Below are positions 9,589-18,582 of a stretch of 64,000 nt of DNA, piece after piece. Position 1 is the stretch's first letter. Each line of letters begins with the position of its first letter. Made by a program: the position numbers and the translations under genes. The notes beneath the pieces are model-generated. The model was not told where the DNA came from. It did not search any database and worked only from the letters and a program-made list of their open reading frames with translations. Source of the DNA: Sphingomonas sp. CL5.1 (GTDB taxonomy: Bacteria > Pseudomonadota > Alphaproteobacteria > Sphingomonadales > Sphingomonadaceae); contig NZ_CP050137.1 in the NCBI RefSeq assembly GCF_013344685.1, positions 558,001 to 622,000 of the forward strand. The letters are read 5' to 3'.

Positions 9589-9828
9589 ATGACCGACAAT
9601 GTTTCCGCCGAGCAACTGCGCCTGTTCATCGAGCGCATCGAGCGGCTGGAGGAGGAGAAGAAGGCGTTCGCCGACGATATCCGCGACGTGTATAGCGAGG
9701 CCAAGTCGACCGGCTTCGACACCAAGACGATCCGCGCGATCATCCGGCTGCGCAAGATGGAGAAGCACGCCCGCGACGAGGCCGACGCGCTGCTCGAAAC
9801 CTATCGCAACGCGCTGGGGATGATCTGA
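9589..9828 (+). CDS. gapR: Nucleoid-associated protein GapR (DUF2312)
   Basis: A 79-aa, highly charged helical protein matching GapR: an N-terminal long coiled-coil helix ([18 protein letters not shown]), then [30 protein letters not shown]. In Caulobacter, GapR forms a dimer-of-dimers clamp on overtwisted AT-rich DNA ahead of replication and transcription. Length and sequence are typical. GGAG sits 6 nt before the ATG. Its Rho-independent terminator immediately downstream is the apparent insertion site of the casposon. Confidence 0.96.
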
Positions 9829-9858: not shown

Positions 9859-9881
9859 GCCTCTCCCCGCAACGGGAGGGG
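9859..9881 (+). terminator. gapR terminator hairpin, now separated from its T-tract
   Basis: A GC-rich stem CCTCTCCC / GGGAGGGG closes a short loop 31 nt after the gapR stop. On this copy the expected T-run is missing: the hairpin is followed directly by GTATAGTGATAG. The matching right-hand copy at 18566-18582 is followed by TTTTT. Joining the two restores a complete intrinsic terminator. Confidence 0.75.
9865..9881. repeat. Left copy of casposon target-site duplication
   Basis: CCCCGCAACGGGAGGGG here is identical to 18566-18582 at the other end of the element. The minimum unambiguous duplication is about 15 bp (9867-9881), within the size range known for casposon integration. Confidence 0.8.
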
Positions 9882-9893
9882 GTATAGTGATAG
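9882..9893 (+). repeat. Left terminal inverted repeat of casposon
   Basis: GTATAGTGATAG, the perfect inverse of 18544-18555. Beyond these 12 bp the inner sequence is only loosely similar (both ends have an AATAAAT/TATAAATA-type stretch). Confidence 0.85.
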
Positions 9894-9905
9894 TGGGCGG
9901 AAAAT

Positions 9906-9932
9906 AAATCTGACCACGGGTAGGTCAGATTT
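9906..9932 (-). terminator. Terminator-like hairpin of the XRE regulator gene
   Basis: Arms AAATCTGACC (9906-9915) and GGTCAGATTT (9923-9932) form a perfect 10-bp stem with a 7-nt loop. Read on the minus strand it covers the last codons of the XRE gene and is followed by ATTTT, so it probably terminates that gene. Confidence 0.6.
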
Positions 9933-10215
9933 CGACCTGTTCTGGCACTGCCGCGACGACATGTTTCAGCAGATTAATGGCGCTGATATCGAGCGCCTGA
10001 GCAACCGCGATGAATTCTAGGATATCGAGTCGTCGCTCGAATTGCTCCGTTTTGTTGACGAATGAAGGATGCTTGCCAAGCCTGCGCGCAAGCTCGCGCT
10101 GCGAGATACCCTTACCCTCGCGAACCGCTTTGATCGCTGCAATCGCTGATCGGTAGTCGGACGAGACCACCCATCCCCGTTGCATATTAGCCGCCCGATT
10201 TGAATCCAAGCGCAT
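9925..10215 (-). CDS. XRE-family transcriptional regulator (casposon)
   Basis: A 96-aa single-domain DNA-binding protein. The lambda-repressor-type helix-turn-helix is visible as GISQRELARRLGKHPSFVNKTEQFERRLD followed by an IAVAQALDI helix typical of XRE proteins. It likely represses a promoter of the element, and a perfect 17-bp dyad lies 20 bp upstream of its start. No strong Shine-Dalgarno was seen; ATG 10215 is used, while an internal ATG giving MQRGWVV is a possible alternative. It lies just inside the left end of the casposon. Confidence 0.85.
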   Translation of the reverse strand: MRLDSNRAANMQRGWVVSSDYRSAIAAIKAVREGKGISQRELARRLGKHPSFVNKTEQFERRLDILEFIAVAQALDISAINLLKHVVAAVPEQVEI

Positions 10216-10235
10216 CAATAATTCGGAAACCTATC

Positions 10236-10252
10236 GTCCCCATGATGGGGAC
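10236..10252. promoter_or_regulatory. Operator-like dyad upstream of XRE gene
   Basis: GTCCCCATGATGGGGAC is a perfect inverted repeat with 8-bp arms around one central base. It lies between the XRE gene (minus) and the GIY-YIG-like gene (plus), the expected place for an autoregulatory operator. Protein binding is inference. Confidence 0.6.
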
Positions 10253-10329
10253 AGTCGGGGCAAATTTCGGATGAATTGCAATGCGGATTAACTTCGGAGC
10301 GTTGGTCAATTTAGAGGTCGCGCTCGCGG

Positions 10330-11226
10330 TTGGCGGCGTGTCACCGAACATCACTCGCTATCTTGCTGACGTTCGTTGTGGCTTCCTATCTAACTGCGGG
10401 ATGTAAGGGGGTGTCGTTCCTTGCTGTGAACAACTTGGCTGGGCCGGAAAGTGATATAGCAACGCTTAAGCCTATGATGCCAATCAACGGTCAGGATGTG
10501 CTATATGTCCTTCAGAACGAGCATGGTTCCTATAAGGTAGGAAGAACTTGGAGCGTAAAGAGAAGGATATACGAGATTCAGCGCTCAGATGTTTGTAAAA
10601 TATTTCCCATATTTTCGCTGAACGAATGCGGCCCGTGGGAAGTATATATACATAACAAGATAAGAAAACATGTTCTGCTAAACGAATGGTTTAAGGGCAA
10701 CGATGAATCTAGAATGGATTTACAAAATCTCCTAGAAACAAATTTAATATGGAGAACGATTTATAATCAAAAAGATGAAAATAAATGGTTGAAAGATTTA
10801 GAATTATCAAAAATGAGAAGATACACCGTAAAATTGCTCCAATACGAAATACGTTATTTAAATGACACGGAAAGAAATAAGTTAAGAGATTACTCAATTA
10901 TAGATTTCGTTTCAAAAATAATTAGCAACGACGTGTATGATAGAGTTTTGGGGACCGGTATTGCTCAGATATTCCGAGAAGAGGAACGAAAAAGGTCGTA
11001 TAGCGGTAAATATCTTATACCAGATTTTACCATCGATGTTGATTCGGCCCTTCTACTCTGGCCAAATGACATAAGACCCGATTATTGGCACGGGTCGGCA
11101 ATAGAAACTAGCGCGGCGCTGCTTCGATATCTTCGGTGTAAAGTCGCAAATCCGCACTGGGATGTTCGATCCTGCCTTAAGCACATGCCTATTGGCTGCT
11201 ACAAGCCCGAGAGGGGATTGGGCTAG
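10330..11226 (+). CDS. GIY-YIG/T5orf172-like protein, AT-rich casposon cargo
   Basis: Up to 298 aa. Around residues 56-75 the segment VLYVLQNEHGSYKVGRTWS resembles the start of the T5orf172/MUG113 branch of the GIY-YIG nuclease superfamily (xYVxx-n-xYKxGxT), followed by the typical helix with RRIYEIQ and the strand region ending GPWEVYIHNKI with the family E/H positions. The rest is lysine/asparagine rich and unrecognised. The middle of the gene (about 10560-10990) is strikingly AT-rich, unlike the flanking genes, which suggests recent foreign cargo. The start is uncertain: a TTG at 10330 gives a hydrophobic N-terminus, while ATG 10474 begins just before the domain. Confidence 0.6.
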   Translation: MAACHRTSLAILLTFVVASYLTAGCKGVSFLAVNNLAGPESDIATLKPMMPINGQDVLYVLQNEHGSYKVGRTWSVKRRIYEIQRSDVCKIFPIFSLNECGPWEVYIHNKIRKHVLLNEWFKGNDESRMDLQNLLETNLIWRTIYNQKDENKWLKDLELSKMRRYTVKLLQYEIRYLNDTERNKLRDYSIIDFVSKIISNDVYDRVLGTGIAQIFREEERKRSYSGKYLIPDFTIDVDSALLLWPNDIRPDYWHGSAIETSAALLRYLRCKVANPHWDVRSCLKHMPIGCYKPERGLG

Positions 11227-11266
11227 TCTTTAGTGATTAATTCCTAAATCGCCGAAAATTGTAGCT

Positions 11267-12388
11267 TCAGCGGCAAGAGGCTTGAGCCGTGGACCTAAAT
11301 GACTCGACTAACCCGCTTAATGCTCTGGCAAGCTGCGGCGACAATCGGCAAACGCCATCCTTTCGGATGACGAAATCGGCGGGAGCGAATGACTGATCCC
11401 GCATAAATTGCAGGATGACCGCATCGACGGCCGCCCGCTCCAACTCGATCATGTCGAGAACCCAAGCCGGGCTGCCCTTGTTGCTATTGTGCATGATGCC
11501 AAGCGTCGGATCATAGCCATCGGCAATGGCGGCAATCTGCAACTGCGCCAGCTTTACGGTATAGGCATAGTTCAGCATGGCGTTGACCGGGTGGGAGGCG
11601 TTGCGGTTCTTGGCCTTCACGCCGGTCGCCCGTGAACTGCGCCGGTTATAGGCGCGCCACTCCTGCGGAACGGGGTGGCGGTCGATGCCCTTCCACCGCA
11701 CGGGCAATCCCTGCCACGATTGAAAATAGGCTGCGGCGCATTCGCCCTCGATGGCGAAAATTGCGCCGATATCGGTGAATGCTTCCCGGCTCAGGCGGGC
11801 TATTCCCGTATCAGCCTTTTCCAACGCCATCTCGCGGGCCTTGGAGGGCGGGATATGAACCTCCAGTGTCGGGATGGTGGAGACGATCTTCCGGCGGATC
11901 AGGTCGGCGGCGAACGCCAGTCGCTTCGTTTCGTCTGTACGGGTGGCTTGCTGCCACTCGACCTTCTCGCGATCAGCGGCATAGCCGGTGCCGCTTGCCA
12001 CCGTTGCAATCTCGCCATTCGCCTTGATGCGGGCGAGCGCAACGCCCTGTTCCGCCAGCCATGACAGCACATCGAACGACAGGGTGCCGCTGCCGTCGAG
12101 CAACAGGATGCGTGTCGGAATATCGAGGCTGCCGGGAAAGAAGCGATATCTCGCCTGCTCCTGCGGGTAATGCGTGAAGCCGTCGCGGATCACCAACGCG
12201 CCATTCTCGATCCGGAGCGACACGCCGTGGCCGTTCAAGATCAGCGGCGCGGGATTGCGCTGGCGCAGCTTGCGTCTCGGTGCGGATTTTGTGGCTCTCG
12301 AAAGCCAAAATTCCGAGCGGACCGCCCAATCGTCGGCGATATCGGACGGATCGATTTCAGGTTTCCAACGCATGATCGATAATAGCAC
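11267..12388 (-). CDS. cas1: Stand-alone Cas1 endonuclease/integrase (casposase)
   Basis: A 373-aa Cas1 homologue. The N-terminal beta-domain includes LILNGHGVSLRIENG and the RILLLDGSGTLSFDVLSWLAEQGV stretch typical of Cas1. The catalytic helical domain shows FAIEGECAAAYF (Glu214), HPVNAMLNYAYTVKL, LGIMHN (His300) and LDMIELERA (Asp312/Glu315), which match the metal-binding Glu-His-Asp/Glu set of Cas1. There is no cas2, no other cas gene and no repeat array nearby. With the family B polymerase 2 kb away and terminal repeats, it is best read as the integrase that inserts the element ends into a target. Start is GTG 12388 or ATG 12373; neither has a clear Shine-Dalgarno. Confidence 0.93.
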   Translation of the reverse strand: MLLSIMRWKPEIDPSDIADDWAVRSEFWLSRATKSAPRRKLRQRNPAPLILNGHGVSLRIENGALVIRDGFTHYPQEQARYRFFPGSLDIPTRILLLDGSGTLSFDVLSWLAEQGVALARIKANGEIATVASGTGYAADREKVEWQQATRTDETKRLAFAADLIRRKIVSTIPTLEVHIPPSKAREMALEKADTGIARLSREAFTDIGAIFAIEGECAAAYFQSWQGLPVRWKGIDRHPVPQEWRAYNRRSSRATGVKAKNRNASHPVNAMLNYAYTVKLAQLQIAAIADGYDPTLGIMHNSNKGSPAWVLDMIELERAAVDAVILQFMRDQSFAPADFVIRKDGVCRLSPQLARALSGLVESFRSTAQASCR

Positions 12389-12445
12389 GGATTTACGTGA
12401 AGTCGTGCATTTTGAATGTTAATTGGCACGATCTCGAAAAATCAA

Positions 12446-13411
12446 TTAGCTGTTCTGACTGATATTCGCTACCGCGCCATGCAGATTTTCAATCTCGTCC
12501 GGTAACAATAACCTTGCACTGGTTCGCCGCATTTCAATCCAGAAGATCAACATCGCTGCTTGCAAGGAAATTGAAGGATTCGCAGCAATGCGGCTCATCG
12601 TGCCCAATCCAAACGCGCCCCGTCCAAATCGTTCAATGCCAAACCGATATAGCAGGGTAGCCGTTTCGACCGCATGGACAAATTCCCGGCGTATTTCAAT
12701 TGATGGATCGAGCGGCGTGGTATTTGGCTCTATATTGCGCAACACTCCTGAAAGATCACGCAAAATCCCTTCTATCGTACCCTTGAAGTCGATCGCGTGA
12801 CCCGCAATGCTATGCCGTTCCGATGCTCTCGCGCCGAAGATGTCGAGTACCGCCTGTAATTCGCTCTGATTGGGCTTCGCATCACTCTCGTGACTAAAGC
12901 CGATAAATTCACTTTGTACTACATCGACACCGAACCCGATCAAGGTTTCGAGAATTTCTCGATCTAACTTGGCCAGCGGCGCATAAAGCGGCGTGCCTCG
13001 CGTCATCGCTAGAACCACTTCCCGCAATTGAATGAGATCGGGACCATCCTCTTTATTGGCGTGCTCTAGTGCTGCGTTTCGAACTTCAAACAGCATCGTC
13101 CGCGCTGCACTCAGCGCCGGCCGCCAATAACGATCATCAACGGGAAAACCCCGCAACCATAGCTGCCAACCAACCCAATCACGCTTTTCGCGAATTTTGA
13201 ACAGGCGCACTATTTCGATTGCCTGAGCGGCGCTTTGCGGCGGCACAACAACCGTGCTGCCACGTCCGCGCCCTTTCCCACGCTGCTTGGGGCGCGGCAA
13301 TAATCCCCATCGGCGCCATCGCTCAATTTTTGCGTCCGATATTTCAGCGCCGACCATCACAAACTCTGCGCGCATTTGGTCGGCGGTTATCCAGTTATCT
13401 GTCACGGGCAC
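12446..13411 (-). CDS. Casposon protein with MerR-like winged-helix N-terminus
   Basis: About 321 aa if GTG 13411 is used; the frame stays open to a TTG at 13513, which would overlap the divergent gene. The N-terminal ~90 residues look like a MerR-type DNA-binding domain (ITADQM helix, then DAKIERWRRWGLLP, a GRGRGSTVV wing, and IEIVRLFKI). The remaining 220 residues are helical and not recognised, with no catalytic motif. It shares its strand and a 58-bp gap with cas1 downstream, so the two are probably one operon. A regulatory or end-binding role is inferred. Confidence 0.65.
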   Translation of the reverse strand: MPVTDNWITADQMRAEFVMVGAEISDAKIERWRRWGLLPRPKQRGKGRGRGSTVVVPPQSAAQAIEIVRLFKIREKRDWVGWQLWLRGFPVDDRYWRPALSAARTMLFEVRNAALEHANKEDGPDLIQLREVVLAMTRGTPLYAPLAKLDREILETLIGFGVDVVQSEFIGFSHESDAKPNQSELQAVLDIFGARASERHSIAGHAIDFKGTIEGILRDLSGVLRNIEPNTTPLDPSIEIRREFVHAVETATLLYRFGIERFGRGAFGLGTMSRIAANPSISLQAAMLIFWIEMRRTSARLLLPDEIENLHGAVANISQNS

Positions 13412-13475
13412 GCTGCTTTTTTCTTTAGAGACCCGCGCAGAATAGCCATTCGGGTGAATCCACCCCCTTATTTGG

Positions 13476-14072
13476 TTGCCGTCAGCGATTCGGAGACGGC
13501 ACTTGGCTCGCAAACGAGATCATCGGCAAGAGTATCAGCGTCGTTTGGCGAGGGGCGCCGCACGCGGTTTGACCCGTTCGCAGGCTCGCGGCCACGCGAA
13601 GGCGGGGGAATCATCTGTCAAGTCCGCCGCCAAGATCGGCGGCGAGAGGTTCGAGGCCGCGCTCAAACTGTATCGCGAAACCGGCAATCAGGCCGCCGCC
13701 GCGAAGGCATATAATATAGCGCCGGAACGCTTCCGCCGCTTTCTGCGCGAGACCGTCGAAATCCACGGTCGCGGCAAATCGCTGCGGATCACCGACAATC
13801 GTCTCCGGATCATGGCCGTCATTTCCGATGGCGATGTTCACGAACGAACGCTGCTCGATTTCGATCAGGCGTCGCTGAACGGCCGTCATCTCAACGCTGT
13901 GAAGGCATTTGTCGGCAGTAACGTCATCGATCTGCTCGCGCCCTTCGTCGGCAAATCCGTGATCGATGTGAAGGGCAAAGCCCATCCGCTCGAAACCGAT
14001 CCCAACAAGCTGCACCGCCTCGCGAATGCCGGGAGCGAGGTGTTCCATGACGTTTACCGGCTTATCATTTGA
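13476..14072 (+). CDS. Small basic HTH-type accessory protein (casposon)
   Basis: A 198-aa protein starting at one of several in-frame TTG codons (first 13476; no ATG or GTG is available). The N-terminus is strongly basic (RGAARGLTRSQARGH), followed by a helix-turn-helix-like stretch ETGNQAAAAKAYNIAPERFRRFL. The C-terminal half (LLDFDQASLNGRHLNAVKAFV) is not recognised. It is the first gene of a plus-strand run with the HNH nuclease (12-nt gap) and PolB (overlap). DNA binding is inferred from charge and HTH pattern; the function is unknown. Confidence 0.6.
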   Translation: MPSAIRRRHLARKRDHRQEYQRRLARGAARGLTRSQARGHAKAGESSVKSAAKIGGERFEAALKLYRETGNQAAAAKAYNIAPERFRRFLRETVEIHGRGKSLRITDNRLRIMAVISDGDVHERTLLDFDQASLNGRHLNAVKAFVGSNVIDLLAPFVGKSVIDVKGKAHPLETDPNKLHRLANAGSEVFHDVYRLII

Positions 14073-14083
14073 AAGGAAATAAA

Positions 14084-14446
14084 ATGACGGATGTTGATTT
14101 GAAGCGTGAACTTCGCAAGCAACGAGCGCTCGAAAGACTTGCTACGAACACGCCTTATTGCGGAATGTGCGGCGAACCGGACTGGCGGTGCATGGAACTG
14201 CACCACGTCGCCGGTCAGAAGCGTGACGACACCACCGTCATCCTGTGCCGGAACTGCCATCGCAAGGTGAGCGACGATCAGAAGGACCATCCCGTATCTG
14301 ATCTCAACGCCGATGCCGTGCTTGAAGCGATCGGCCGTTTCCTGCTTGGTCTAGCCGACCTGCTGCGGCGGATCATCGACACGCTGACCGTGTTCGGGAC
14401 GACGCTGATCGAGCGCAGCGTGCAGGACGGGGAGGCGGTGCGATGA
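14084..14446 (+). CDS. HNH endonuclease (casposon)
   Basis: A 120-aa protein with a compact HNH nuclease core: CGMC (Cys26/Cys29), MELHHVAGQKRDD with His40-His41, and ILCRNCHRKV with Cys55/Cys58 and His59. This is the zinc-ribbon-containing HNH layout. A hydrophobic helical tail follows (about residues 85-110). HNH nucleases accompany Cas1 and PolB in many casposons, perhaps processing DNA ends. AAGGA lies 7 nt before ATG 14084, and the stop overlaps the PolB start (ATGA), showing translational coupling. Confidence 0.88.
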   Translation: MTDVDLKRELRKQRALERLATNTPYCGMCGEPDWRCMELHHVAGQKRDDTTVILCRNCHRKVSDDQKDHPVSDLNADAVLEAIGRFLLGLADLLRRIIDTLTVFGTTLIERSVQDGEAVR

Positions 14447-17235
14447 GCAAGGCCGTTCCTCCCGTCACCGATCGGCTGTCGATCGCGCTCCGCGCCTATG
14501 CGGTGCCGAAGATACAGGCGTTGCCCGATCCCCATGCATCGAAGGCCAAGCGCCCGATCGCACCGGCATCGGACTGGACACTGATCTTCGACACCGAAAC
14601 CACCGTCGATGCGGCGCAATCGCTGCGGTTCGGATCATATCAGTTCCACAACGGCGATACGCTCGATGAGGCGGGCCTGATCTATGATCCAGAAGGCGTG
14701 ACGCCCGACGAACTGGCGACGTTGCGCTCTTATGCCGATCGCGAGGGATTATGCCTGCGGACCCGCGACGAGTTCGTGGACGAGGTGTTTTTCAAGCGTG
14801 CCTGGCAATTGCGTGCCGCGATCGTGGGGTTCAACCTGCCGTTCGATATCTCGCGCATTGCGATCAAACATGGTTCCGCCCGCACGCCGATCGATGCGGA
14901 TAACGGTGGGATGCGTGACGGGTTCACGTTCAAACTGTCGCATCAGAAATTCTGGCCGAACGTCCGGGTCAAACATATGTCGGCGCGGGCAGCATGGATT
15001 TCCTTTGCCAAGCCTATGAAGCAGCCCGACAGTCGGGGGCAGCGCAAGCGAGGTATGAAAACTTCCGATCGGCGCGGTCACTTCATCGACGTGAAAACCG
15101 TCGCTGGTGCGCTGTTCGCCCGTGGCTTTAACCTCGCCGGGCTATCCCGGTTTCTGAAGGTCGATCATCCCAAGCAGGACTTCGATGCTTTCGACGGTCC
15201 AGTTACCGATGAAATGGCGCGCTATGCGATGGGCGACGTGCAGGCGACGTGGGAATGTTATCGCGCCTTGCGCGGCCGGTTCGACCAGCTCGGCCTTGTC
15301 GGTACGCCGGTCGAGAAGGTCTATAGCGAGGCGAGTATCGGCAAGGGCTATCTGCGCGAAATGGGGGTCACCCCGTGGCGCAGGAACCAGCCCGATTTTC
15401 CGCCACAGATGATCGCCAATATCCTCAGCGCCTATTTCGGTGGCCGATCGGAGGTGCGCGAGCGGCGGGAAGTGCGACAGGTGATGCTATGCGATTTCCT
15501 GTCGATGTATCCGACCGTCTGCACGCTGATGGGGCTTTGGCGGTTCGTCATCGCGGATGGCATGACATGGCACGACACCACGCGGGAAACCCGCGCCTTT
15601 CTCGATGCGATCGATCTGACCGCGCTGCAATCGCAGGGAGCATGGCGCAATCTGGCGACGCTGGTTCGGATAGCGCCGGACAGCGACATTTTCCCGATCC
15701 GGGCGGCCTTTGAAGGCGAGGCGCAAACCACGATCGGCCTCAACTTCCTCAGCGCGGATCAGCCTCTATGGTTCACGCTGGCCGATTGTATCGCATCGAA
15801 GCTGCTCACCGGGAAAGCGCCGACAATCCTCGAAGCGATGACTTTCGCGCCGGGTCCGGTGCAATCCGACCTGCGCCCGATCAGCATTGGCGGGAACCCG
15901 GATTATAGGGTCGATCCGGTGGCAGATGATTTCTTCAAACGAGTCATCGAATTGCGGCAGTCGATCAAGGCCCGGATGAGAACTGTGACCGGCACTGAAC
16001 GCGAGGCGTTCGATATCGAACAGAACGCCCTCAAGATCGCGGCCAACGCCACCAGCTACGGCATCTATGTCGAAACGAACGTCGAGCGGCGCGCCGCCAA
16101 GCGGCCAACCGTCGTTCTCAACTCGACCGGCGACCCGTTCACCTTTCCGACCGATCTGGCGGAGATGCCGGGGACATATTTCCACCCGTTGCTTGCCACG
16201 CTGATTACCGGCGCGGCGCGACTGATGCTCGCCATCTGCGAACGGCTGATCGGCGACAACGGACTGGAATGGGCGCTTTGCGATACAGACAGCATGGCGG
16301 TCGCCAAGCCGGAGGCGATGCCGAGCGATGAGTTCGTGCGGCACGTGCACCGAATCGTGGAATGGTTCACCCCGCTCAATCCCTATGCCTTTGGCGGGCC
16401 GATCCTGAAGATCGAGGATGAGAATCACGCCCTCGAAGATGACGCGCTGGAGCCGCTCTATTGCTGGGCGGTATCATCGAAACGTTATGCCCTGTTCAAT
16501 CTCGATCCCGATGGCGAGCCGATCATGCGCAAGGTGTCGGTGCACGGCTTGGGGCATTTACGACCGCCTTATGGCAACGAGGATGCGCCTGCCGAAATCC
16601 CCGCGCCGCACGATGATGTTTTGCGGCATGGTGTGGAACGATGGCACAGCGATTTGTGGTGGTGCATCGTCAAAGCCGCGCTGGCCGGACAGCCCGATTG
16701 CGTGCCGCTGGATTATCATCCCTCATTGAGCGGACCCGCCATTAGTCGATATGCCGCGACGACGCCTGATCTGCTGCGCTGGTTCAAGGGTTACAACACA
16801 GACCGAAAGCCCCGCGATCAGGTCAAGCCATTCGGGTTCCTGCTCGCCATGCAGGCGCGGTTCGATTTTGGCGGGGAACGCATCGTCACGAAACGGCCGC
16901 GTGGCCGACCGTGCAAGGTGCGCAAACCCAAGCCGATCGCGCCATTCGATCGCGATCACGCCAAGGCGGCGGCCAATGCGTTCGATCGGGAAACCGGCAA
17001 AGCCGTCCTGCCCTCATCGCTCCGTTCTTATGCCGAGGCGTTGGCGCAATATCACCTCCATCCGGAATCCAAGTTTCTGAACGGGGATTATTTCGACCGG
17101 GGCACGACGCAGCGGCGACATATCGATGCTACCGGCATCCGGCATATCGGGAAGGAATCGAATGATTGGGAACGGCAGGCTGTGCTGGGAATTACCCGAG
17201 ATAGCCAAATCATCTATAGCGGAATATCGCTATAA
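14443..17235 (+). CDS. Family B DNA polymerase (casposon)
   Basis: A 930-aa polymerase. The 3'-5' exonuclease motifs are ExoI FDTET (Asp50, Glu52), ExoII GFNLPFD (Asp135) and ExoIII YAMGD (Tyr261, Asp265). The polymerase motifs are A CDFLSMYPTV (Asp351), B KIAANATSYG (Lys531, Tyr539, Gly540) and C CDTDS (Asp614, Asp616). All catalytic residues are present, so the enzyme should be active with proofreading. It would copy the element during transposition, the self-synthesising feature of casposons. It overlaps the HNH gene by 4 nt. No frameshift was seen, and its codon use is close to that of the host. Confidence 0.95.
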   Translation: MSKAVPPVTDRLSIALRAYAVPKIQALPDPHASKAKRPIAPASDWTLIFDTETTVDAAQSLRFGSYQFHNGDTLDEAGLIYDPEGVTPDELATLRSYADREGLCLRTRDEFVDEVFFKRAWQLRAAIVGFNLPFDISRIAIKHGSARTPIDADNGGMRDGFTFKLSHQKFWPNVRVKHMSARAAWISFAKPMKQPDSRGQRKRGMKTSDRRGHFIDVKTVAGALFARGFNLAGLSRFLKVDHPKQDFDAFDGPVTDEMARYAMGDVQATWECYRALRGRFDQLGLVGTPVEKVYSEASIGKGYLREMGVTPWRRNQPDFPPQMIANILSAYFGGRSEVRERREVRQVMLCDFLSMYPTVCTLMGLWRFVIADGMTWHDTTRETRAFLDAIDLTALQSQGAWRNLATLVRIAPDSDIFPIRAAFEGEAQTTIGLNFLSADQPLWFTLADCIASKLLTGKAPTILEAMTFAPGPVQSDLRPISIGGNPDYRVDPVADDFFKRVIELRQSIKARMRTVTGTEREAFDIEQNALKIAANATSYGIYVETNVERRAAKRPTVVLNSTGDPFTFPTDLAEMPGTYFHPLLATLITGAARLMLAICERLIGDNGLEWALCDTDSMAVAKPEAMPSDEFVRHVHRIVEWFTPLNPYAFGGPILKIEDENHALEDDALEPLYCWAVSSKRYALFNLDPDGEPIMRKVSVHGLGHLRPPYGNEDAPAEIPAPHDDVLRHGVERWHSDLWWCIVKAALAGQPDCVPLDYHPSLSGPAISRYAATTPDLLRWFKGYNTDRKPRDQVKPFGFLLAMQARFDFGGERIVTKRPRGRPCKVRKPKPIAPFDRDHAKAAANAFDRETGKAVLPSSLRSYAEALAQYHLHPESKFLNGDYFDRGTTQRRHIDATGIRHIGKESNDWERQAVLGITRDSQIIYSGISL

Positions 17236-17427
17236 CGTGCGTTGCGCACCGCATCCGATACCGGAGCGCTTGGTTCACTCTTCAGCGCGTAGGCAAGTCG
17301 TCAGAGGCCATCGCATTCAGTATATGCGTGAAACGAGCGTTCAGAGTATCGATCCTGCGGTATGATTGGTATGGACTCGCTGGTAATGTCGGAGACAAGT
17401 TCAGTCGTCGCAAATTTCGGATAGGAT

Positions 17428-18378
17428 ATGACAGGAAATAATCCACACGAACGCTATTTTTCGGCGGGTTTTTGCGTTCTCGTTATTTTAGCGACATTTG
17501 TACTAATCTATGTCGTCGGCGACCTGAACGGCCGTCAATCTGAACGGCGTCAACAAGAATCCTCCATTCATATCGAAACAGCAAAAGAGCAAGCGCGGCG
17601 AACTTGCGTCGGGATGAATCTTATTACTACGATAAAATGTGTTTCTGAAATCGTACAAGCGAGTGAAGATCACAAGTTAGATGAGCAAGATTTGGTCGCG
17701 CAGCAGCGTGCTGCATGGGGTACAATGCTTGGTAGTGGTGTGGCATTTCTTGCGTTACTGGCGACCATTATCGGACTTTACTATGTACGCGAGACATTGC
17801 GCGCAACCTTGCGAGCGGTGGAAGATACGAGTGAAGCAACCAAGGCGATGCATGCCGCAAATGAAATTGCGAAGGAAGCCAGCCGACCTTGGTTGAAAAT
17901 GTTTACTCCTCAAGACGTTAGTTTATTATCGGTCACAGTCGAGACCATAGGAAAGCGTTGGGGCGGCGTCCATTTTAAGGTAGAAATAAAGAACTTCGGA
18001 AATGGACCAGCAATTGGCCCCCACCTTGACGCCGTTTTTTTTGACAAAAGAAATGGTTTTAACAGGATTGAAGTCCAAAAAAGGCTTCGTCACTTCGTCG
18101 AAACGACGGGCTTCGGCGCCGCTCCAGTATATCCCGGTGATACCGCGTTGTTGGGTGAGAATACAATTTTTATTAGAAATATTCAAGAAAATCCCATCCT
18201 TGAAATAAATGACATGGGATTGATGATCGGCGTGTGGTATGGTGAAGTTGGTAGCGAACGGTGGTTCCACATAACATCGGTTTATTTTTTAAAAATAGAT
18301 GAAAATAGAAATATTTCTGACTCTCATCGCATTCCAATTACAGTAGAAAATGTTCAATATATGACTGAAGCCACTTAG
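17428..18378 (+). CDS. Two-TM membrane protein, casposon cargo, function unknown
   Basis: A 316-aa protein with one N-terminal transmembrane segment (AGFCVLVILATFVLIYVVG, about residues 13-31), a charged and probably extracytoplasmic stretch with two Cys, a second TM segment (SGVAFLALLATIIGLYYV) and a soluble C-terminal domain from about residue 150 that begins ASRPWLKM. Similar two-TM plus beta-rich-domain proteins occur as orphans near mobile elements, but I recognise no named family. It is AT-richer than PolB and lies alone 192 nt after it, just inside the right end of the element. Confidence 0.7.
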   Translation: MTGNNPHERYFSAGFCVLVILATFVLIYVVGDLNGRQSERRQQESSIHIETAKEQARRTCVGMNLITTIKCVSEIVQASEDHKLDEQDLVAQQRAAWGTMLGSGVAFLALLATIIGLYYVRETLRATLRAVEDTSEATKAMHAANEIAKEASRPWLKMFTPQDVSLLSVTVETIGKRWGGVHFKVEIKNFGNGPAIGPHLDAVFFDKRNGFNRIEVQKRLRHFVETTGFGAAPVYPGDTALLGENTIFIRNIQENPILEINDMGLMIGVWYGEVGSERWFHITSVYFLKIDENRNISDSHRIPITVENVQYMTEAT

Positions 18379-18543
18379 TATCATGGGAGTACTGCAATTC
18401 AGTGAGAATTTTGCAATTCAAATACACGAAGATGAAAAATCTCTTTTATAACTAAGGAAGACACTATCCTCTTTGCCAAAGCGCCTTTTAAGAACTATCG
18501 GGGATAGATAGCCCGCTGCGGCTGAATAGGTATTTATAGGTGG

Positions 18544-18555
18544 CTATCACTATAC
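18544..18555 (-). repeat. Right terminal inverted repeat of casposon
   Basis: CTATCACTATAC is the exact reverse complement of 9882-9893. It is followed by the poly-C tract and the right target duplication. Confidence 0.85.
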
Positions 18556-18565
18556 CCCCCCCCCC

Positions 18566-18582
18566 CCCCGCAACGGGAGGGG
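18566..18582. repeat. Right copy of casposon target-site duplication
   Basis: CCCCGCAACGGGAGGGG is identical to 9865-9881. It is followed by TTTTT at 18583-18587, the T-tract expected for the gapR terminator. Confidence 0.8.

Follow-up and report, generated by a model that had tools for sequence, protein, structure and literature searches.

A bacterial casposon in Sphingomonas sp. CL5.1 with a Cas1 that probably inserts it at a short palindrome

What is a stand-alone Cas1 gene doing near a DNA polymerase gene in a sphingomonad, and if the two travel together, what sort of site do they travel to? We have put these questions to a window of 64,000 nucleotides (nt), the whole stretch of DNA analysed, at positions 558001-622000 of the 4.57 Mb genome of Sphingomonas sp. 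CL5.1. The answer to the first is short: window positions 9882-18565 are a bacterial casposon, a member of a known superfamily. The answer to the second takes longer, and we hold it to be quite probable: in this bacterial casposon, Cas1 probably inserts the element at a short palindrome, which is duplicated in the process. A gene set, common ends, duplications and, in most of the relatives examined, palindromic sites are all seen directly. The palindromic target, which we judge the most interesting feature, had no place in the first-pass annotation of this DNA.

That annotation had called the element a casposon, and all that it relied on is present: a stand-alone Cas1, a family B DNA polymerase (PolB), an HNH-like protein, inverted tips and a target duplication. 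It had placed the borders at 9882..18567; the left edge stands, and the right edge moves in by 2 bases, to 18565. The element proper is therefore 8,684 bp long, and it carries eight genes. With its surroundings it reads as follows.

9589..9828, + strand: host gapR gene, next to the insertion on its upstream side (PF10073, E=1.5e-34)
9865..9881, no strand: left copy of the target duplication, CCCCGCAACGGGAGGGG; forms a hairpin that is not perfect and is probably the terminator stem of gapR
9880..9893, + strand: left terminal inverted repeat, GGGTATAGTGATAG; its first 2 bases overlap the target copy
9911..9917, + strand: subterminal box TGACCAC, in which GACC stands 31 nt inside the tip
9925..10218, - strand: Xre-type helix-turn-helix (HTH) regulator (PF01381, E=3e-9)
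10330..11226, + strand: MUG113/T5orf172 protein, probable cargo (PF13455, E=1.8e-6; PF10544, E=2e-5)
11267..12388, - strand: Cas1 casposase, 373 amino acids (PF01867, E=4e-32; best PDB relative 6OPM; tree)
12446..13513, - strand: predicted HTH protein in a variable slot (no Pfam family; HTH read from the sequence)
13476..14072, + strand: conserved HTH-like core protein (PF13518, E=0.012, weak; homologues in relatives)
14069..14446, + strand: HNH endonuclease-like core protein (PF01844, E=0.011, weak; homologues in relatives)
14443..17235, + strand: PolB, 930 amino acids (PF00136; invariant motif columns)
17428..18378, + strand: probable cargo protein without a family above the cut-off; membrane segments predicted from the sequence
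18544..18557, - strand: right terminal inverted repeat, GGGTATAGTGATAG; adjoins a run of 15 C, no GACC box
18566..18582, no strand: right copy of the target duplication, an exact match to the left copy, then TTTTT

The case for a casposon begins with Cas1 itself. The residues first noted as in place (Glu214, His300 and Asp312/Glu315) are, together with Glu216, invariant in 30 aligned relatives picked from the 120 matches listed (numbers are those of the window protein; in P0001 numbering they are lower by 5), and Glu214, His300, Asp312 and Glu315 align with the E, H, D and E of the Methanosarcina mazei casposase 6OPM. When a Cas1 profile was compared with solved structures, 6OPM was again the best match (E=2e-24, versus 3e-15 for the best CRISPR Cas1, that is, Cas1 of clustered regularly interspaced short palindromic repeats). 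From 26 Cas1 proteins a maximum-likelihood tree was built; it is unrooted, came with a long-branch warning from the program, and splits 13 alphaproteobacterial and 7 archaeal casposases from 6 CRISPR Cas1 (support 99/98) and so puts the window protein in the casposase clade, where it had been expected. Its alphaproteobacterial rows are 8 of the 120 matches listed plus the window, L010, L045, G786 and G556; its archaeal rows are 7 of the 120 matches listed in a separate search; and its CRISPR rows are 6 of 9 records, L072 and L075 being excluded as cut fusion proteins and L078 dropped. In Cas1 relatedness and catalytic residues the element thus resembles the archaeal casposons of Aciduliprofundum boonei and M. 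mazei; it differs in that their Cas1 has a C-terminal HTH domain, and none was matched in the window Cas1.

This is the only Cas1 in the genome, and the earlier statement that no Cas2 accompanies it held up: the genome has no Cas2 match at E<=0.01, in a search whose control found Cas2 in 7 of 14 known genomes, and no search aimed at CRISPR arrays was made. It is with that proviso about arrays that we call Cas1 stand-alone. A pairwise comparison with the Cas1 of L042 gave a nonsynonymous divergence (dN) of 0.12 and a synonymous divergence (dS) of 0.87, and therefore purifying selection.

The other core genes tell a similar story. PolB was said to have all its catalytic motifs, and F-D-x-E-T, DFLSMYP, K...N...YG and DTDS do fall in invariant columns of 20 aligned sequences, picked from the 120 matches listed, and we take these to be the catalytic motifs. 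Pfam finds the family barely above its cut-off (23.4 versus 23 bits, E=3e-5), and, as regards the RNA-primed type of PolB looked for in family 3, the match to Deep Vent PolB is weak (E=0.0025). A family B polymerase inside the element is what one looks for in a casposon, just as one looks for an HNH endonuclease gene in a family 3 casposon. The latter is weak by Pfam, because the PF01844 score lies under its cut-off, but homologues occupy the same position in relatives, and the nuclease first reported there can be kept. The HTH-like core protein is present as well, and homologues of HTH, HNH and PolB adjoin Cas1 even where Cas1 identity has dropped to 38-45% (G556, G786, G1007, G1101). Homologues of the Xre regulator lie close to an end in L007, L008, L009 and L012. 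The slot between Cas1 and the HTH gene (window 12446-13513) seems, by eye, to hold at least three unrelated families across the elements: the protein of the window has homologues in L007, G1007 and G909, and different genes fill the same slot elsewhere. The gene in that slot could set target choice or regulation; no link between it and the type of target was visible by eye.

How, then, is such an element bounded? Our comparison covers 23 distinct Cas1 loci after merging (L008=L041=G326, L009=L043=G168, L011=L044=G154, L042=G245, L047=G162), 12 loci having come from named contigs and at least three sharing genomes with other hits. Relatives keep the same core genes within the same kind of ends, and ends were found for 19 of the 23. 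In the window, GGGTATAGTGATAG occurs at 9880-9893 (+) and 18544-18557 (-), two matches at a tolerance of 2 mismatches, against 0.04 expected, and both tips are perfect 14-nt inverted copies of it, so that the terminal inverted repeats (TIRs) of the first-pass annotation are borne out. As an oligonucleotide sequence the casposon tip is GGTATAGTGATAG. Among 29 aligned ends the tip motif is GGTATAG at 28 and GGTAGAG at one; the spacing between tip and GACC is exactly 33 nt at 19, and 31 or 32 nt at two (the left end of the window among them), which makes 21 ends with the box and 8 without, the latter including the right end of the window and both ends of L005, G556 and G1101. The alignment holds 29 of 32 ends because three fell outside the pattern of the script (L007 left, GGTATGG; L008 left, GGTATTG; L042 left, GGTATAA), and the ends of G1007, which have no GGTATAG, are not among the 32. 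Conservation of the tip is partly circular, since many ends were found with the tip motif itself, and so is the box at G162, G090 (contig 95) and G244, where the search pattern held TGACCACA at loose spacing.

From the GACC spacing and the shared tips we take the end to be mostly bipartite, the tip likely being held by Cas1 and the box, some three helical turns inside, likely being bound by another protein. The claim that the key genes are intact accordingly needs trimming: the core reading frames are open, and "intact" is not wholly right because the right end has its 15-C run (18555-18569) and no GACC box. In that run slippage and sequencing error are indistinguishable. Ends without a Cas1 are a separate matter. 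An exact-pattern search for MITE-like solo ends in 397 genomes found ends in 4, and it is insensitive, since it picked up just 3 of the 7 Cas1-bearing genomes (that of the window was not among them). One single casposon end with no Cas1 nearby, at L048 9915 (G244), is probably a relic.

The 19 loci with ends and this one relic end give 20 target sites. Around the window element the annotated target duplication proved to be 17 nt, CCCCGCAACGGGAGGGG; its copies lie at 9865-9881 and 18566-18582, and the genome holds no further exact match. Behind gapR the left copy is a hairpin with no T-run, and the right copy is a hairpin followed by TTTTT; read by eye from hairpin and TTTTT, this is probably the gapR terminator stem. 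The hairpin is imperfect, with p=0.012 against intergenic windows (RNA parameters).

The relatives examined make the pattern plain: most sites are clear palindromes, and the insertion has duplicated them. All 12 elements with both ends have exact duplications of 14-21 nt, among them CCCCGGACTTGATCCGGGG (L003 and L047), CCCCGGCCTGCGCCGGGG (L005), CCCCTCCCCGCCGGGGAGGGG (L007) and CCCGCCTTCGCGGG (L009, within a 13-bp stem). The pattern extends to G556, whose Cas1 is 38% identical and whose duplication is CCCCCCATCAAGGGGGG; G1101, at 45%, has CCCCCGCTAGTGCAGGGG, a hairpin flanked by an A run and a T run. Tested against random windows of the same locus, 13 of the 20 sites fold better at p<0.05 (DNA parameters, Fisher 4e-15); against pooled windows outside open reading frames (ORFs) of 100 amino acids or more, the figure is 15 of 20 (RNA parameters, Fisher 8e-16), and 10 of 12 for the complete elements alone (Fisher 6e-13), the combined values assuming independent sites. 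In 9 of the 12 complete elements hairpin and duplication share one centre, for which the random-window null is 9.6%. These tests on reconstructed sites supersede one on the 22-mers outside single ends (p<0.01 at 14 of 22 ends; 0.086 and 0.32 for the two window ends).

Several observations weigh against our reading, and some of them come from the window itself. Its site is significant in the RNA test only (the DNA-parameter test against random windows gave p=0.32), its hairpin is centred 2.5 away from the centre of the duplication, and its target falls outside the repeat class described below. Elsewhere, the G786 duplication, GGCTTCAAGAAACAA, has no hairpin at all (p 1.0 with DNA and 0.96 with RNA parameters); the G1007 site is weak (0.29 and 0.26) and off-centre by 3, its borders being less sure because its ends have no GGTATAG and are weakly inverted; and G090, G909 and the G244 relic end reach significance in neither test. 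Because the tips open with G and the targets mostly close with G, the position of the cut can shift by a few bases, and this ambiguity favours the centring result. The sites are not fully independent, because L003, L012 and L047 have one repeat sequence. Ends were not found for L010, L011, G573 and L070. No transposition was observed, and the check for an empty site of the window copy came out negative, with no exact empty site behind gapR in 41 genomes of the genus, reached by the left flank (nine stretches taken).

What are these palindromes to the host? One class of them, CCCCGNNCTTGNNCCGGGG, is a dispersed host repeat with 4-26 copies in five of seven genomes: 26 in G245, 21 in G326, 15 in G162 (these three counts include the two copies that flank the element), 6 in G168 and 4 in the window genome. 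G090 and G244 have 0 copies, and the reversed sequence has 0 matches in all seven. Some copies are inverted pairs 78-79 bp apart, in the manner of repetitive extragenic palindromic (REP) elements, which form such pairs. Unoccupied copies of the identical palindrome lie close to the elements in L004, L005, L006 and L013. The G168 target, like that of the window, lies outside the class, and the 17-mer of the window is not a genomic repeat. A single target may also be used more than once. In G090 (L045 10880-10960, L046 9740-9790) two ends on contig 108 stand back to back around a shared CGCCGACAATTAGCG, and on contig 95 a third end abuts CGCCGACAATTAGCG with one change; a tandem casposon array is the probable explanation, and tandem casposons are known from archaea (PMC9939771).

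How might an element of this kind move? PolB would copy it, probably from a host primer. Cas1 would bind both GGTATAG tips, while 33 nt further in an accessory HTH protein may bind the TGACCACA box. A pair of Cas1 dimers, symmetric like the M. mazei tetramer, would then sit across the dyad of the palindrome, and each strand would receive one casposon 3' end, the two joints lying on either side of the dyad; repair of the 14-21 nt gaps would leave palindrome, casposon and palindrome in a row. Insertion would go to dispersed REP-like repeats or to terminator hairpins, and genes would therefore be spared; in the window the site would be the terminator-like hairpin behind gapR. The scheme has some precedent in M. 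mazei, whose casposase uses a symmetrised target as effectively as the natural one in vitro and forms a pseudo-twofold tetramer (PMC6977970). We go one step further, tentatively and with somewhat more doubt than confidence: alphaproteobacterial casposases may select their targets by dyad symmetry, taking short hairpin-forming palindromes (REP sequences, terminators), integrating across the dyad and, through repeated use, building palindrome-insert arrays; a palindromic target of this sort could be ancestral to CRISPR repeats.

Must it be the palindrome that is recognised? Cas1 could instead read C-run and G-run borders, the palindrome being a by-product of GC-rich hosts, and we regard this as a possibility to be taken seriously, if not the one we would choose. 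Most sites do start with C-runs and finish with G-runs, the window site retains CCCC...GGGG despite its imperfect stem, and the M. mazei casposase contacts bases at the target border (PMC6977970). Stems, however, extend beyond the border bases, to as many as 13 pairs in L009, whose duplication starts with CCC only, and the shuffled letters of the same sites fold worse (p<0.05 in 13 of 20). A different doubt concerns the window copy alone, which might be an immobile remnant or a domesticated island in a family that is otherwise mobile. We think this unlikely. It would fit the single copy in the genome, the missing empty site and the right end with its C-run and no GACC box; yet the box is likewise missing at both ends of three relatives (L005, G556, G1101), the core reading frames are all open, tips and duplication are perfect, and the Cas1 lineage is under purifying selection.

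Two further alternatives would take the work away from a casposase altogether. A serine recombinase or some other enzyme might move the element, with Cas1 and PolB as passengers, and serine recombinase-like large genes are indeed found in L005 (2967-4553), L009 (930-4323) and L042 (1533-4890). The same kind of ends, however, occurs with no recombinase gene (as judged from open frames) in L003, L007, L008, L047 and the window, and the constant set is Cas1, HTH, HNH and PolB; for G556, G786, G1101 and G1007 the comparison covers the core genes. Duplications of 14-21 nt are, moreover, not usual for serine recombinases, and we consider their leading role very improbable. That the locus is the remnant of a CRISPR-Cas adaptation module, as the label "Cas1" from Pfam and NCBIfam might invite one to think, we can scarcely credit and have rejected: 6OPM is the best structure match, the tree splits the protein from CRISPR Cas1, no Cas2 matched, and the partner is a PolB between element ends.

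With integration by Cas1 into a palindrome as the preferred reading, how new is all this? An alphaproteobacterial family 3 casposon, HenMar-C1 of Henriciella marina, was in print in 2014 (Krupovic, PMC4046053), and our element is like it in its bacterial host, its Cas1 with no extra domains, its PolB, HNH and HTH genes, its TIRs and its target site duplications (TSDs). Family 3, the bacterial family, also takes in casposases from Acetothermum, Streptomyces and Nitrosomonas. The available text of that paper gives targets that are intergenic or overlap genes and describes no palindromes or repeats, a comparison made by description. The casposons of 2014 had TIRs of 25-602 nt and TSDs of 1-27 nt; at 14 nt the window TIR is shorter, and at 17 nt its TSD lies inside the range. 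The two archaeal casposons studied in vitro go into the 3' end of tRNA genes with the help of a leader that lies upstream, with TSDs of 15 bp in A. boonei and 14 bp in M. mazei, where the 14-bp targets are at tRNA-Leu (PMC9939771, PMC6977970). A. boonei Cas1 recognises a palindromic T-psi-C loop repeat upstream of the TSD (review, PMC9939771), whereas in the window family the palindrome is the TSD itself. Dispersed extragenic palindromes are also the targets of REP-targeting insertion sequences (PMC1525189), but these rely on transposases of another kind, where our element is of the self-synthesizing type and has a Cas1 casposase. We found no report, in the literature searched, of a casposon in Sphingomonas or of one linked to a REP sequence or palindromic element, and none of palindromic duplicated targets in the casposon literature searched (available portions of PMC9939771, PMC6614799, PMC6452270, PMC10359463 and PMC6977970), a coverage outside of which most subscription papers fall; what comes nearest is the T-psi-C palindrome of A. 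boonei, upstream of its target. Our element belongs to a clade with an unusual, CRISPR-like target choice in a host group that the literature we found does not name. The palindromic targets, bipartite ends, sphingomonad hosts and, in some relatives, restriction-modification or defence-like cargo would be its new points, with priority unproven.

Why should one care? As in CRISPR spacer integration, an insert comes to lie between two copies of an often palindromic target through the action of a Cas1 integrase; unlike the Cas1-Cas2 reaction, there is no Cas2, the insert is ~9-16 kb with conserved ends, the sites are dispersed, and the target is 14-21 nt versus the 25-50 bp of CRISPR repeats (PMC6977970). 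CRISPR repeats have been proposed to derive from the casposon target site or TIRs (PMC6977970, PMC6452270), and the repeat, more specifically, from the casposase's preferred target (PMC6977970). A bacterial group with named isolates and mostly palindromic duplicated targets, dispersed repeats among them, makes that last model testable. If our reading is true, we have a living transposon doing the task of a proto-CRISPR integrase and supplying the palindromic target that was missing, and the defence-like cargo of some elements would tie casposons to the spread of immunity.

The relatives turned out to be plentiful. Database searches matched 2,089 Cas1 (8,000 candidates scored) and 2,771 PolB proteins (7,997 scored), 120 of each being listed; the 11 organism-named Cas1 rows among those 120 are, we presume, all Sphingomonadales. 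The protein cluster of the window Cas1 alone covers 74 contigs. Of 397 family genomes searched, 7 have Cas1 (E<=1e-50); of 385 from the class, 4 (E<=1e-25); and of 398 from the phylum, 6 (E<=1e-30), all six of these in the same class. The window's own genome is in each count. Rarity in sphingomonads is rejected. The first-pass remark that no casposon was known from this host group needs changing, given these relatives and the alphaproteobacterial casposon in print since 2014. Plasmid records hold no Cas1 relative at E<=1e-20; at E<=0.01, the best 40 of 97 include one clear relative, a Bradyrhizobium plasmid fragment. It is an unannotated fragment of a related Cas1 beside IS66 copies (L070 12001-12352, Bradyrhizobium sp. 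2S1), on pBsp2S1b, which is typed as a conjugative plasmid. In viral contigs, 600 stretches matched the peptide pattern and none encodes a relative. Among the loci compared, the right-neighbour protein matched the window only. One relative, L047 (G162), is a decaying copy, with its Cas1 split over two frames and a transposase-like gene present three times inside.

Cargo was scanned in 15 different proteins from five relatives and the window, with L042 and L047 outside the scan. The MUG113/T5orf172 protein of the window we take to be of the GIY-YIG type; the protein at 17428..18378 has no Pfam family above the cut-off, and neither matched a PADLOC model. Some relatives carry cargo resembling defence genes, to judge from their predicted proteins: an EcoRI-type methylase, a GmrSD/HNH restriction enzyme and an OLD/AriA-like ATPase in L003 (298-2503, 8538-10211), an MmeI-like type IIG enzyme over two frames in L007 (1736-4657), an IetA-like AAA ATPase in L008 (2500-3747) and an Mrr-like protein in L005 (11391-12287). 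Methyltransferases were already known as casposon cargo (PMC4046053). The Pfam scan of the large genes covered the L005 recombinase and one RepB-like protein of L009; in L009 and L042 the recombinase-like gene adjoins two RepB/ParB-like genes.

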